64,000 nucleotides of DNA from Bradyrhizobium canariense (lineage in GTDB: Bacteria > Pseudomonadota > Alphaproteobacteria > Rhizobiales > Xanthobacteraceae). Both the position numbers and the translations under genes were made by a program. The notes below the pieces were generated by a model. The model worked only from the letters and a program-made list of their open reading frames with translations. It did not search any database and was not told where the DNA came from. Each line of letters opens with the position of its first letter. Position 1 is the first letter of the stretch. The DNA is taken from contig NZ_LT629750.1 in the NCBI RefSeq assembly GCF_900105125.1, positions 2,666,001-2,730,000 of the forward strand, written 5' to 3'. Shown piece by piece: positions 40,501 through 45,253 of this stretch.

Positions 40501-41751
40501 ATGACCCCAGTCGCATCCAATCTGCAGATCGATTCCGCCCGGCTTTGGGATACGATTCATGAAACGGCGAAATTCGGCGCGACGCCCAAGGGCGGGGTTC
40601 GGCGGCTGACGCTCGGGCCGGAAGACAAGCAGGTGCGCGACTGGTTCCGCAAAGCCTGCGAGGCCGCCGGCCTCGAAGTGCATGTCGATGGGCTCGGTTC
40701 GATGTTTGGCCTGCGCAAGGGCCGCGACATGTCGAAGCCACCGGTCGGCCTGGGCTCGCATCTCGATACCCAACCGACCGGCGGCAAGTTCGACGGCGTG
40801 CTCGGCACGCTGGCGGCGCTCGAAGTCGTTCGCACCCTCAACGATGCCGGGATCGAGACCGAAGCCCCGATCTGCATCGTCAACTGGACCAACGAGGAAG
40901 GTTCGCGCTTTGCGCCGGCGATGATGGCGTCGGCCGCCTATGTCGGTGATTTTACGACAGACGATATTCTGTCGCGCAGGGATGCCGAAGGCGTCACCGT
41001 GGCGGAGGCGCTCGACAGCATCGGCTATCGCGGCGACAGCCCGGTCGGTACGCAAAAATTTACCAGCTTCGTCGAACTGCATATCGAGCAAGGTCCAATC
41101 CTCGAAGCGGAGAACAAGACCATCGGCGTGGTCGATTCCGGCCAGGGCGTATTGTGGTACGATGGCCAGATCATCGGCTTTGAAAGCCATGCCGGCTCGA
41201 CGCCGATGCCGCTGCGCCGCGATGCGCTGGCAACCTTGTCGGAGATCGTGCTGGCGATGGAGAGCATCGCGAAAAAGCACGGTCCAAAGGCGGTCGGGAC
41301 CATCGGCGAGGCCGTCATCGCCAATCCCTCGCGCAATGTCATTCCCGGCGAGATCGCCTTCACCATCGATTGCCGCAGCGCCGATGCCGCGATCATGGAC
41401 GCGCTCGACAAGGACCTGCGCGCTGCGGTTGCCGAAATCGCGGCCCAGCGCAAGGTCGAGGTCAAGCTCAATCTGGTCTGGCGCAAGCCGCCGACCCATT
41501 TCGATCCCAGACTGGTCGACGCGGTGGAGAATGCGGCTCAGGCGCTCGGCTATTCGCACCGGCGCATCACGTCAGGCGCCGGCCATGACGCCTGCAACCT
41601 CAATACGGTGATGCCTGCCGCGATGGTGTTCGTGCCCTGCAAGGACGGCATCAGCCACAATGAGCTTGAGGACGCAACGCAAGCGGATTGCACCGCGGGC
41701 GCCAACGTCCTGATGCATACCGTGCTGGCGCTTGCAGGCGTTGCGTCGTAG
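40501..41751 (+). CDS. Zn-dependent M20-type amidohydrolase (carbamoylase/allantoate amidohydrolase group)
   Basis: A 416-residue hydrolase of the hydantoinase/carbamoylase family, which splits N-carbamoyl or related amide bonds. Metal-binding motifs in order: GLGSHLDTQPTGGKFDG (His, Asp), NWTNEEGSRF (Glu-Glu), LHIEQGPILE (His), and CKDGISHNELE near the C-terminus. The lid/dimerisation domain has HAGSTPMPLRRDA, and SGAGHDA is the substrate motif. It follows lysR by 38 bases and precedes the dehydrogenase by 37, so the three are probably one transcript. The substrate is not determined; L-carbamoyl amino acids or ureido acids are candidates. Confidence 0.9.
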   Translation: MTPVASNLQIDSARLWDTIHETAKFGATPKGGVRRLTLGPEDKQVRDWFRKACEAAGLEVHVDGLGSMFGLRKGRDMSKPPVGLGSHLDTQPTGGKFDGVLGTLAALEVVRTLNDAGIETEAPICIVNWTNEEGSRFAPAMMASAAYVGDFTTDDILSRRDAEGVTVAEALDSIGYRGDSPVGTQKFTSFVELHIEQGPILEAENKTIGVVDSGQGVLWYDGQIIGFESHAGSTPMPLRRDALATLSEIVLAMESIAKKHGPKAVGTIGEAVIANPSRNVIPGEIAFTIDCRSADAAIMDALDKDLRAAVAEIAAQRKVEVKLNLVWRKPPTHFDPRLVDAVENAAQALGYSHRRITSGAGHDACNLNTVMPAAMVFVPCKDGISHNELEDATQADCTAGANVLMHTVLALAGVAS

Positions 41752-41788
41752 CCGGGCGGTCCCTTTCAAAAAGCAAACGGAGATTTCG

Positions 41789-42700
41789 GTGCGCGGAGTT
41801 TTTGTCGATGCCAACGGATCGCTGGCGGATATTTTCGAGCGGCAGAACGCAGAAGGCGATCCGGAGGTCGCGGTCAACCGCAACGCCGACATCACATCCG
41901 AGCAGATGCCTGCCCTGCTCGATGGCCCGGAGATCGTCATCATCGATCACACCCCGTTTCCGACCGACGTTGCACGGCGCTGCGCTGGCCTGAAGCATGT
42001 GGTCTTTCTCGGCACCGGCGCGCGGAGTTACATGAATCCCGAAGAGCTCGCCGAGCTCGGCATCACCGTTCACTTGATCAAGGGTTATGGCGACACCGCG
42101 GTTGCCGAATGCGCCATCGCGCTGATGTGGGAAGCCTCCCGCGGCATTGCCAAGATGGACCGCGAGATGCGCGCCGGCAATTGGCTACGCGAGGACGGCA
42201 TGCAGCTCACCGGCAAGACGCTGGGCCTGATCGGGTTTGGCGGCATTGCGGCCGAGGTCGCGCGCATCGCGATCGGCAGCGGCATGCGCGTGATCGCGTG
42301 GAACAGGACGCCCAAAAATCATCCCGGCGCCGAGTTCACCGATCTCGATACGCTTCTGGCGCAGAGCCACGTCGTCTCGCTGCATCTTTTGTTGAACGAC
42401 GAGACGCGCGGTTTTCTCACCCGCGAACGGATCGCGCGGATGAAGCCGGGTGTGTTGTTCGTCAACACCGCGCGCGGTGCGCTGGTCGACGAGGCCGCCA
42501 TGATCGACGCGCTGAAATCAGGCCACATCCGACACGCCGGGCTCGACGTTTTCAATATCGAGCCGCTGCCGTCGGACCATCCGCTGACGAAACTACCGAA
42601 CGTGACACTGTCGGCGCATTCGGCCTTCCGCACGCCCGAGGCAAATGAAAATCTGATCAGCGCGGCATGGGCGCATTGCCGGCGGATCGCGAAGGGCTAG
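41789..42700 (+). CDS. D-isomer-specific 2-hydroxyacid dehydrogenase
   Basis: A 303-residue NAD-dependent dehydrogenase. The nucleotide motif GLIGFGGIAAEVARIA is near residues 150-165, the active-site Arg/Glu/His set lies in FVNTARGALVDEAAM, LDVFNIEPLP and LSAHSAF. The start is GTG at 41789 (ACGGAGA upstream), where the domain begins (RGVFVDANGSLADIFE). The last 26 codons are duplicated, with 86% nucleotide identity, at 43891-43971. Its job in the locus is probably reduction of a 2-oxo acid or oxidation of a 2-hydroxy acid made from the imported compound. Confidence 0.88.
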   Translation: MRGVFVDANGSLADIFERQNAEGDPEVAVNRNADITSEQMPALLDGPEIVIIDHTPFPTDVARRCAGLKHVVFLGTGARSYMNPEELAELGITVHLIKGYGDTAVAECAIALMWEASRGIAKMDREMRAGNWLREDGMQLTGKTLGLIGFGGIAAEVARIAIGSGMRVIAWNRTPKNHPGAEFTDLDTLLAQSHVVSLHLLLNDETRGFLTRERIARMKPGVLFVNTARGALVDEAAMIDALKSGHIRHAGLDVFNIEPLPSDHPLTKLPNVTLSAHSAFRTPEANENLISAAWAHCRRIAKG

Positions 42701-42716
42701 CGCCGCACGCTCCAAT

Positions 42717-42854
42717 ACCTTCTCCCCTTGTGGGAGAAGGTGGCGCGGATACCATCCGCGCCGGATAAGGGGTCTGCGTCCGCGGATAGAGACCCCTCAC
42801 CCGGCTCAATCTCGCTCCGCTCGATTTCGCCACCCTCTCCCACAAGGGGAGAGG
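42717..42854. repeat. Extragenic palindromic element, family A (complete copy)
   Basis: The left hairpin CCTTCTCCCCTTGTGGGAGAAGG and the right hairpin CCCTCTCCCACAAGGGGAGAGG flank two shorter inverted repeats. The last 81 bases (42774-42854) are identical to 44085-44165. The 42701-43016 gap contains this element, the gene-end fragment at 42863-42892 and a family B element, but no intact gene. Confidence 0.85.
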
Positions 42855-42862
42855 GTAAGAAA

Positions 42863-42892
42863 TTACTCGACCATCTCCGCGACCGCCTTACC
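42863..42892 (-). pseudogene. Fragment: 3' end of a tartrate-dehydrogenase-like gene
   Basis: Read on the minus strand this encodes GKAVAEMVE followed by a stop, exactly the C-terminus of the intact gene at 44174-45253, with about 87% nucleotide identity including the adjacent bases. Mostly silent changes separate the two. It is cut off by the family B element at 42893. Confidence 0.8.
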
Positions 42893-42994
42893 GAGCCAAC
42901 GGATCGCCGCGAAGCGCCGCCCGATGACAGGCTCCGCGAAGCAATCCATTCTTCCTTTGCGGCCTTATGGATTGCTTCGTTCCTCGCAATGACG
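42893..42994. repeat. Extragenic palindromic element, family B
   Basis: The left arm is the long subtype (GAGCCAACGGATCGCCG ... AGCAATCCAT) and the right arm the short subtype (ATGGATTGCTT ... CTCGCAATGACG). It truncates the gene-end fragment at 42863-42892. Confidence 0.8.
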
Positions 42995-43016
42995 GGAAAA
43001 GCGGAACTCCCGAATA

Positions 43017-43736
43017 TCAGAACTTGTAGGTGATGCCGGTTCCGATCAGCCACGGGTCGAGATTGACCTTGCCGGTGACCGGCAAGGTTCCTGCGAGCGT
43101 GCCGCTCCAGTCCGGGCGCAACCAGATCTTTTTGATGTCGACGTTCAGACCGACATGCTGGTCGATCATGTAGTCGAAACCGATCTGCGCAACTGGAGCA
43201 GCCGTATTGTGCAGGTCGCTGGAGGTGACGATCGTGCCGGCATTATTGAAAGCGTTGCCGGCCGACTGGCTAAAGAAAACCGTATAGTTCACGCCCGCGC
43301 CGATATAGGGCTTGAACGCGCCGAACTCGGTAAAGTGATATTGCAGCGTCAGCGTCGGCGGAAGCAGCCAGGCTTTGCCGACATCAAGGCCAGCCGTTGC
43401 CGGAACGCCGGTACCTGTCACGTCATGACGGGTGGCACCGAGAATAAGTTCGGCTGCGATATTGCGCGTGAAAAAGTAGGAAATATCCAATTCCGGAATG
43501 ACCGCATCCGATGTCTTCACGCCCGATCCCGGTACCTGGTCCACCGAGCCCGAATCCCGCGTGATGACGCCAAGCGCGCGCAGACGAATCATCCAGGGAT
43601 TCCAGGCTTCGACCGCCGGCGCCTTGACGTAGGGTGCCGCAGCGGGCAGGTCGGCCGCTGAGCCGGCTGCCGCAAATCCCAACAGGCCGGCAGCCAAAGC
43701 GAGCGACGAGACCGCAGTTCTTGTTTTTATCTTCAT
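43017..43736 (-). CDS. OmpW family outer-membrane protein
   Basis: A 239-residue OmpW-type eight-stranded beta-barrel. A Sec signal covers residues 1 to about 28 (KTRTAVSSLALAAGLLGFAA ... SAAD). The mature part has the family marks WMIRLRALGVI at the start, LPPTLTLQYHF and YIGAGVNYTVFF, and an aromatic C-terminus (GTGITYKF), as needed for outer-membrane insertion. OmpW proteins pass small hydrophobic molecules or respond to stress. ATG 43736 with GGGGACTTT before it begins the signal; a long upstream in-frame extension is not protein-like. It lies inside the duplicated junction described in the findings and has no operon partner. Confidence 0.9.
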   Translation of the reverse strand: MKIKTRTAVSSLALAAGLLGFAAAGSAADLPAAAPYVKAPAVEAWNPWMIRLRALGVITRDSGSVDQVPGSGVKTSDAVIPELDISYFFTRNIAAELILGATRHDVTGTGVPATAGLDVGKAWLLPPTLTLQYHFTEFGAFKPYIGAGVNYTVFFSQSAGNAFNNAGTIVTSSDLHNTAAPVAQIGFDYMIDQHVGLNVDIKKIWLRPDWSGTLAGTLPVTGKVNLDPWLIGTGITYKF

Positions 43737-43890
43737 GAAAGTCCCCAACAGCTGCCAGTACGAACGATTTCGCACCGGCTGACTTTCACAAAGGCTGACC
43801 TGCCGATCGGAGAAATTGCGCTCGATCAAATCGCCGGTTCTCTTCGTCCGAATCCTCGCGACTGTTGCGCCGCCGACACACAGCGGGCGT

Positions 43891-43971
43891 TCAGCGTTCC
43901 GCACGCCCGAAGCGAACGAAAATCTGATCAGCGCGGCATGGGCGCATTGCCGAAGGATTGCGAGGGGCTGA
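43891..43971 (+). pseudogene. Fragment: 3' end of a 2-hydroxyacid dehydrogenase gene
   Basis: 26 codons plus stop, encoding SAFRTPEANENLIS and on to the end. 70 of 81 bases match 42620-42700, and only one residue differs (Lys to Arg) apart from a different stop codon. The remaining changes are silent, so the fragment derives from a diverged functional homologue, not a recent copy. No 5' part of the gene is present; similarity fades just upstream. Confidence 0.85.
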
Positions 43972-43987
43972 AAATGGCCGGGATAGC

Positions 43988-44082
43988 GTAGGGTGGGCAA
44001 AGACGCCCTTCGCGCCGTGCCCACCATCTATCATTCGCTCGTTGTCACGAACGGTGGGCACGCTTCGCTTTGCCCACCCTAC
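43988..44082. repeat. Extragenic palindromic element, family E
   Basis: A hairpin of GTAGGGTGGGCAAAG and CTTTGCCCACCCTAC with an inner GTGCCCACC/GGTGGGCAC pair. The 43737-44173 gap holds the gene-end fragment at 43891-43971, this element and a half family A element. No intact gene was seen there. Confidence 0.85.
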
Positions 44083-44084
44083 GA

Positions 44085-44173
44085 CTGCGTCCGCGGATAG
44101 AGACCCCTCACCCGGCTCAATCTCGCTCCGCTCGATTTCGCCACCCTCTCCCACAAGGGGAGAGGATAAGAAA
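44085..44173. repeat. Right half of a family A element
   Basis: Bases 44085-44165 are identical over 81 bases to 42774-42854. The left hairpin of the element is missing. It runs directly into the end of the tartrate-dehydrogenase-like gene. Confidence 0.9.
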
Positions 44174-45253
44174 TCACTCCACCATCTCGGCGACCGCCTT
44201 GCCGCAGGCCGTGGTGTCGGCGTTGCCGCCGAGATCGCGCGTGCGCAGCGTGCGCTCGCCGAGCGTGCGCTCGATCGCGGCCACGATCGAGGCCGCGGCA
44301 GTCTTCTCGCCGAGATGCTCCAGCATCATCGCGCCAGACCAGATCATGCCGATCGGGTTGGCGATGCCCTGCCCCGCGATATCGGGCGCCGAGCCGTGCA
44401 CCGGTTCGAACACCGACGGGAAGTTGCCTTCGGGATTGATATTGCCTGACGGCGCGATGCCGATGGTGCCGGTGCAGGCGGGACCGAGATCCGAGAGAAT
44501 GTCACCGAACAGGTTCGAGCCGACGACGACGTCGAACCAATCCGGGTGCAGCACGAAATTCGCGGTCAGAATATCGATGTGATATTTGTCCCACTTCACC
44601 TTGGGATAGCTCTTCGCCATCGCCTCCACGCGCTCGTCCCAATAAGGCATGGTGATGGAAATGCCGTTGGACTTCGTCGCCGAGGTCAGATGCTTCTTCG
44701 GCCGCGACTGCGCCAGTTCGAACGCGAACTTCAGGATGCGATCGACGCCGATGCGCGTCATCACGGTCTGCTGGGTGACGAATTCACGGTCGGTATCCGG
44801 GAACATCCGGCCTCCGACCGACGAATACTCGCCCTCGGTGTTTTCGCGCACCACCCAAAAATCGATATCGCCGGGTTTGCGATTGGCGAGCGGCGATGGC
44901 ACGCCCGGCATCAGCCGCACCGGCCGAAGATTGACGTACTGATCGAATTCCCGGCGGAACTTGATCAGCGATCCCCACAAGGAAATGTGATCGGGAATTT
45001 TGGCGGGCCAGCCGACCGCGCCGAAATAGATCGCATCGTGCTTGCCGATTTTTTCCTTCCAGTCCTCCGGCATCATCTCGCCGTGCTTTTCGTAGTAGTC
45101 GTATGAGGCGAAGTCGAAATGGTCGAAATGCACGGCAACACCATGCTTTTTTGCGGCCGCTTCCAGCACCCGCAGCCCTTCCGGGACCACTTCCTTGCCG
45201 ATGCCATCGCCGGGAATGACCGCAATCCGGTATTGCTTTTTTGCATTGCTCAT
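44174..45253 (-). CDS. Tartrate/D-malate dehydrogenase-like (isopropylmalate dehydrogenase family)
   Basis: A 359-residue NAD-dependent beta-decarboxylating dehydrogenase. IAVIPGDGIGKEVVPEGLRV begins the fold. LRPVRLMPGVPSPL provides the substrate arginines, VVRENTEGEYSSVGG is the substrate loop, and DVVVGSNLFGDILSDLG carries the metal aspartates. FEPVHGSAPDIAGQGIANP binds NAD. The family covers isopropylmalate, D-malate and tartrate dehydrogenases; the WKEKIGKHDAIYFGAVGWP segment favours the tartrate/D-malate group over LeuB. GGAAGGGATC precedes ATG 45253. The last codons overlap a duplicated segment (copy at 42863-42892). Confidence 0.88.
   Translation of the reverse strand: MSNAKKQYRIAVIPGDGIGKEVVPEGLRVLEAAAKKHGVAVHFDHFDFASYDYYEKHGEMMPEDWKEKIGKHDAIYFGAVGWPAKIPDHISLWGSLIKFRREFDQYVNLRPVRLMPGVPSPLANRKPGDIDFWVVRENTEGEYSSVGGRMFPDTDREFVTQQTVMTRIGVDRILKFAFELAQSRPKKHLTSATKSNGISITMPYWDERVEAMAKSYPKVKWDKYHIDILTANFVLHPDWFDVVVGSNLFGDILSDLGPACTGTIGIAPSGNINPEGNFPSVFEPVHGSAPDIAGQGIANPIGMIWSGAMMLEHLGEKTAAASIVAAIERTLGERTLRTRDLGGNADTTACGKAVAEMVE

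Follow-up and report, generated by a model that had tools for sequence, protein, structure and literature searches.

Partial copies of neighbouring gene ends around ompW in Bradyrhizobium canariense: a possible scar of allele exchange at a variable chromosomal slot

The concept of the minimal mobile element reportedly goes back to Saunders and Snyder in 2002. Such an element is a region between two conserved genes that holds different whole-gene cassettes in different strains, according to PMC3898611. As for insertions that leave duplicated ends behind, PMC3240628 describes an E. coli conjugation test: when a circular molecule with part of its homology missing integrated by a single crossover, the target locus was partially duplicated. 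PCR yielded a product for 56 of 60 clones, and those of the 14 sequenced clones measured 109-950 bp. The same source documents homology-facilitated illegitimate recombination (HFIR), with one homologous side, one illegitimate joint, and orphan gene ends as a possible outcome, in three competent species (S. pneumoniae, A. baylyi, and P. stutzeri) and, rarely, in E. coli. From other bacteria, PMC5361080 and PMC2884548 describe both homology-assisted illegitimate events and displaced gene ends.

The locus described here belongs to the soil bacterium Bradyrhizobium canariense and lies in a 64-kb stretch of its DNA, hereafter the window, where ompW, a small outer-membrane gene, stands between two partial copies of the ends of its neighbour genes. 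The left flank is an intact D-2-hydroxyacid dehydrogenase gene (HADH, 41789..42700, plus strand, PF02826 E 3e-59). It is followed by repeat A, a full palindrome (42716..42857) whose 30-nt end arms are 93% complementary, and by TDH' (42863..42892, minus strand), the last 30 bp of a diverged copy of the right-flank gene, with 4/30 differences from the intact one. A palindromic repeat labelled REP-type by eye (42930..43005) separates TDH' from ompW itself (43017..43736, minus strand, PF03922 E 8e-42), whose conserved module reaches approximately 43879. Further right come HADH' (about 43887..43971, plus strand), the 3' end of a diverged HADH gene with 12/84 differences from the intact copy, the palindromic inverted repeat E (about 43985..44084), a second copy of the right half of A (44085..44168), and an intact tartrate/isopropylmalate-type dehydrogenase gene of the Iso_dh family (TDH, 44174..45253, minus strand, PF00180 E 8e-90). 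Direct repeats of the target region thus enclose the insert, one of 120 nt (42774-42893 and 44085-44204, 96% identical, spacing 1311) and one of 83 nt (42616-42698 and 43887-43969, 88% identical, spacing 1271). In an ungapped comparison of the 64-kb window, these two are the only direct-repeat families of at least 60 nt within 5 kb, and chance is therefore not a serious option.

Both HADH and TDH are present in 94 of 102 parsed loci and are convergent in all 94, while the other 8 loci are without one of the genes in the stretch covered. According to the spacer between the two genes, 92 loci (after removal of the duplicate rows L109 and L110, with some other genomes still appearing twice) fall into 32 with fewer than 450 bases, 56 with longer spacers, and 4 with ompW, the classes of 32 and 56 being set by length alone. 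The gene content was read for 7 of the 56 long-spacer loci (L115, L123, L133, L119, L153, L182, and L067). It includes an Ldh_2 malate/lactate dehydrogenase gene (Pfam E 1e-107 in L115), an Ldh_2 gene accompanied by a SUFU-domain gene (Pfam SUFU E 3e-21 in L133), and, identified by eye, a second such gene standing alone, a tyrosinase-like gene, and an IS110-like transposase. Judging by these loci, the HADH-TDH junction is a variable slot in Bradyrhizobium that a few genomes fill with ompW and most of the examined ones do not. The record titled Frankia sp. RB7 (L123) holds a HADH-TDH locus of Bradyrhizobium type and is probably mislabelled or contaminated.

Loci with convergent HADH and TDH and without ompW, which the sequence-only reading, an earlier reading of the window from its letters, had proposed to look for, do exist. 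The left junction of the window (42601-42893, HADH-A-TDH) matches three of them (L074, L063, and L064) over its whole length. As for the right junction, HADH'-E is contiguous with the ompW-free loci L148, L153, and L075, of which L153 holds the IS110-like gene, and the adjacency of half A and TDH aligns in many loci. At the four other ompW loci neither A nor E was found at E 1e-4, and HADH-A is therefore taken as a junction of the ompW-free type. By these alignments, both window junctions are of that type. Repeats A and E are dispersed palindromes. A general cassette flanked by A was considered and rejected, with A lying within 200 bases of HADH in 0/56 long-spacer loci and within 260 bases of TDH in 24/56.

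Compared with the described systems, the slot answers to what is called a minimal mobile element, although it may not be entered solely by homologous recombination in the flanks. It has two conserved flanking genes, whole-gene cassettes that differ between strains, and, in the window insert, no mobility gene that could be found. The window, however, calls for at least one non-homologous joint (42892/42893); the variation is among species within a single genus, and one of the occupants is bounded by a duplication rather than cleanly. With single-crossover insertion-duplication (PMC3240628), the locus shares a partial duplication of the homologous region around an insert, but the window case is natural, concerns alleles that are 12-14% diverged, passes through a short repeat, and is an event that we infer only. 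HFIR may resemble it in the single homologous side, the illegitimate joint, and the orphan gene ends, and would leave the 81-bp identity of the window unexplained. At the T6SS clusters of Vibrio cholerae, with their displaced immunity genes and effector 3' ends, a new module likewise stands beside a displaced older gene end (PMC5361080), whereas the ompW locus has no effector or immunity genes and its gene ends partly duplicate neighbours that are intact. A literature search with limited terms returned no paper on this HADH-ompW-TDH locus. We regard it as a new, legible instance of a known event type and not as a new system. It can be read as a natural record of diverged relatives swapping a cargo gene at a chromosomal slot, and it confines the shared zone to 81 bp. 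Known mechanisms are left unchanged by it.

The two copies of the junction have diverged very unevenly. The right half of A inside the full copy (42774-42854) is identical to the second copy (44085-44165), with 0/81 differences, whereas the gene-end fragments, taken together, show 16 mismatches to the intact genes in 114 bases (Fisher P 2.3e-4). A crossover inside A helps explain why identity is confined to A. In HADH', 9 of the 11 changed codons are silent, and in TDH' all 4 are, one stop-to-stop change in each fragment being counted as silent. For both fragments together this makes 13/15, versus approximately 41% expected for a duplicate drifting in place, an expectation which assumes that the intact gene stayed under selection meanwhile (P 3.3e-4). 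Drift in place is disfavoured by this excess of silent changes, and the fragments would therefore have come from functional genes of a close relative; until recently, HADH' and TDH' probably formed the ends of working genes. The sequence-only reading had claimed a junction occurring twice around ompW, an inserted unit of about 1311 bases, a shared repeat identical over 81 bases, and fragments of foreign, diverged origin that changed mainly at silent sites. Layout and direct repeats confirm the double junction, the repeat spacing gives the same unit length, the 81-base identity is recovered without a mismatch, and the fragments behave in their codons as functional gene ends.

According to a DNA search of 265 genomes of the genus, a near-complete ompW module is found in 5 of them (that of the window, G047, G031, G181, and G217), and the next matches by score are about 69% identical over roughly 650 bases. 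In all four other carriers ompW lies between HADH and TDH, among them G047, which is closest to the window of the genomes compared. At 4-fold sites, ompW is 79% identical to its G047 counterpart, versus 71-75% for five neighbouring genes; although slightly high, this value is near that of the neighbours and carries no apparent sign of very recent or very distant arrival. Together with the shared slot in four other genomes, it contradicts the earlier claim that ompW is newly arrived between HADH and TDH. A flank tree of 8 genomes (12,104 columns) has the form ((window, G047), (G031, G052)), (G181, G217), in which G052 is without ompW, and suggests that ompW is an old resident with one loss. The 79-taxon tree, built from a shorter stretch (3,622 columns), joins the window and G047 with G181 and G217 (0.87), followed by ompW-free loci, with G031 further out, and in midpoint-rooted trees of HADH and of HADH plus TDH (91 taxa) the ompW carriers are not one clade. 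As the trees disagree, spread of ompW by exchange among relatives may be set beside old residence with losses as an alternative. Beyond the genus, 18 OmpW loci of other genera (L236-L253) are 69-80% identical to the window ompW, with neither HADH nor TDH within 1.5 kb on each side, while the fetched Bradyrhizobium OmpW paralogues (L084-L108) reach 55-62% to the window OmpW and are thus more distant than the proteins of other genera, hinting that ompW may have entered from outside the genus.

Relics of gene ends also occur beside ompW in other carriers. A fragment of the HADH end lies to the right of ompW in G181 (BLAST E 3e-11) and in G217 (E 3e-16), at loci L189 and L190, and the gene order ompW-HADH'-repeat-TDH is present in both, so that part of the architecture with HADH' on the right may be older than the window event. 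The relics are decayed, with 6/17 and 4/17 changed codons silent, respectively, and one in-frame stop in G217, whereas the HADH' of the window is fresh (9/11 silent versus 4/17 in G217, Fisher P 0.006). Because of this difference, the window HADH', though it shares side and order with the relics, is taken as a renewed or an independently formed one. Other candidate relics were not accepted. For TDH relics to the left of ompW, shuffled sequences were as good in 7/200 (G181), 17/200 (G217), 94/200 (G047), and 63/200 (G031) cases; for HADH relics to the right, the corresponding values against the genome's own gene end and the window fragment are 27/200 and 8/200 in G047, and 60/200 and 70/200 in G031.

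As for the source of the fragments, the HADH' core (66 bp) groups with the window and G047, being 5/66 from G047, 6/66 from the window's own gene, and at least 8 from other compared loci. In the 265 genus genomes, 216 of which have a match, the window's own gene (88%) and G047 (90%) score highest. The nearest of 95 TDH ends to TDH' is L113 (1/27 differences, versus 3/27 for the window's own gene), although at 30 bp TDH' is too short for fixing a donor. The two fragments could thus not be assigned to the single donor lineage that the sequence-only reading had expected, and no donor genome was found among those searched. In the 40 bases after 42892 (42893-42932) there is neither significant continuing TDH homology (P 0.60) nor a HADH tail (P 0.45). 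A sharing of changes between the 5' tip of HADH' and the G217 relic was dropped, the intact gene scoring higher.

Regarding which gene ends are native, HADH looks so by its gene tree, where the window groups with G047 (support 1.0), and G047 is the closest of seven genomes in three 500-bp bins over 41500-42700 (87-89% versus at most 85%). Left of 41000, other genomes are closer than G047 in several bins. HADH', by its silent changes, would be from a diverged functional gene, while TDH' offers only 30 bp and the TDH trees are discordant. Over 30 bp, the intact TDH end is the nearer of the two to G047, with 1 difference against 3 for TDH'. Gene trees of TDH (44174-45253) do not pair the window with G047, unlike the flank trees, though support is low. 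At that level of support they suggest that TDH recombined separately in the window or in G047, and given this lack of pairing the intact TDH could be the imported part.

We propose that the locus is a recombination scar of allele exchange at a slot resembling a minimal mobile element, most likely produced by a single crossover in A with a circular or tandem piece bearing ompW (probability of about 0.5). The recipient chromosome would have had the ompW-free junction HADH-A-TDH, and the donor, a close Bradyrhizobium relative, would have contributed a piece carrying ompW and then HADH'-E-half A-TDH'. This piece would have been closed to a circle, or joined to a tandem copy, between TDH' and the spacer at 42892/42893; the host encodes two Ku proteins, and end joining is therefore possible. 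A single homologous exchange inside the 81-bp half of A would integrate the piece and split the native junction into HADH-A on the left and A-TDH on the right, with the donor gene ends left inside. Since identity over 81 bp goes beyond a crossover alone, heteroduplex repair or later conversion between the copies must be added. The mechanism needs, accordingly, one illegitimate joint, one homologous exchange, and repair or conversion over 81 bp. Since the group already had ompW at this slot in its gene pool, the event would have been an allele exchange or re-import and not a first arrival. The circle or tandem intermediate, the crossover point, the ompW-free recipient, and one donor for both fragments are what we infer here.

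Several results count against this single-crossover reading. G047 has ompW in the slot, so that an ompW-free recipient requires loss and then re-gain; the HADH' of G181 and G217 is decayed while that of the window is fresh; the TDH trees lack the window-G047 pairing, and the genomes searched held no donor. A single crossover in the repeat with a circle, or a diverged homologous copy, bearing ompW was already the interpretation of the sequence-only reading. Identity restricted to A, foreign fragments, and the ompW-free loci support it in part, whereas ompW as a newcomer has to be given up, and a single donor would have to be assumed. A wider claim, that short palindromic repeats at convergent gene ends act as crossover points by which small cargo genes enter and leave chromosomal slots as integrase-free circles between Bradyrhizobium species, seems quite improbable.

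HFIR, a one-sided integration that needs no circle, is a possible, if rather doubtful, alternative and the main rival. A linear fragment ompW-HADH'-E-half A-TDH, homologous to the recipient in TDH or beyond, would have been joined illegitimately at its other end 30 bp inside the recipient TDH end; in the mirror version, an ompW-free HADH-A-TDH fragment would have been patched onto a resident ompW. Besides being documented elsewhere, this course combines a homologous exchange with an illegitimate joint, which falls at 42892/42893 as in the single-crossover reading, and the order of its linear fragment is like that of G181 and G217. On the right, HADH'-E-half A-TDH looks like a junction of the ompW-free type, with half A-TDH recurring in many loci, and the absence of a window-G047 pair in the TDH trees, at low support, is also in its favour. 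HFIR, however, leaves the identical halves of A unexplained while the gene ends differ by 14%, and the closeness of the intact TDH end to G047 suggests that TDH' is the foreign part. Duplication within the lineage around a resident ompW, followed by replacement of the intact flanking genes through homologous recombination or by conversion that made fragment and gene alike, would agree with ompW at the slot in four relatives, its 4-fold identity to G047, and the HADH' relics in G181 and G217. It is nevertheless unlikely: the replacement tracts would have to end at A on both sides, HADH looks native in bins 41500-42700, and the excess of silent changes speaks against pure drift of the fragments.

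An insertion driven by a transposon-like element or an integrase, with a long target duplication, might be thought of because direct repeats of the target flank ompW and because A and E are dispersed palindromes. It is hardly credible, however, as Pfam recognises OmpW, and six further frames of the insert give no match above cut-off and no transposase or integrase; moreover, the flank copies differ by up to 14%, and A is on the HADH side in 0/56 long-spacer loci. A capsid-family search, meant as a stand-in for gene-transfer agents, gave no match and is uninformative on such agents. An assembly or mixed-culture artefact is very improbable. The genome is one 7.84-Mb contig with completeness of 100 and contamination of 0.47, HADH' fragments are seen in G181 and G217 too, and the window copies differ outside an identical stretch of just 81 bp, which argues against an assembly duplicate.

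A search of Rfam gave a best match of only E 0.13. The tail of the REP-type repeat also adjoins ompW in G047, by local alignment with the left spacer of that genome (0/500 resampled sequences as good); repeats of this type are dispersed, so separate insertions in the window and in G047 are possible. Upstream of ompW, a TTG-N8-CAA box is located 92-93 bases before the start in all five ompW genomes (43816-43829, minus strand, in the window). It resembles FNR/FixK2 sites. The box reads TTGATCCGGATCAA in G031, and the second half-site of the window is the most degenerate of the five.
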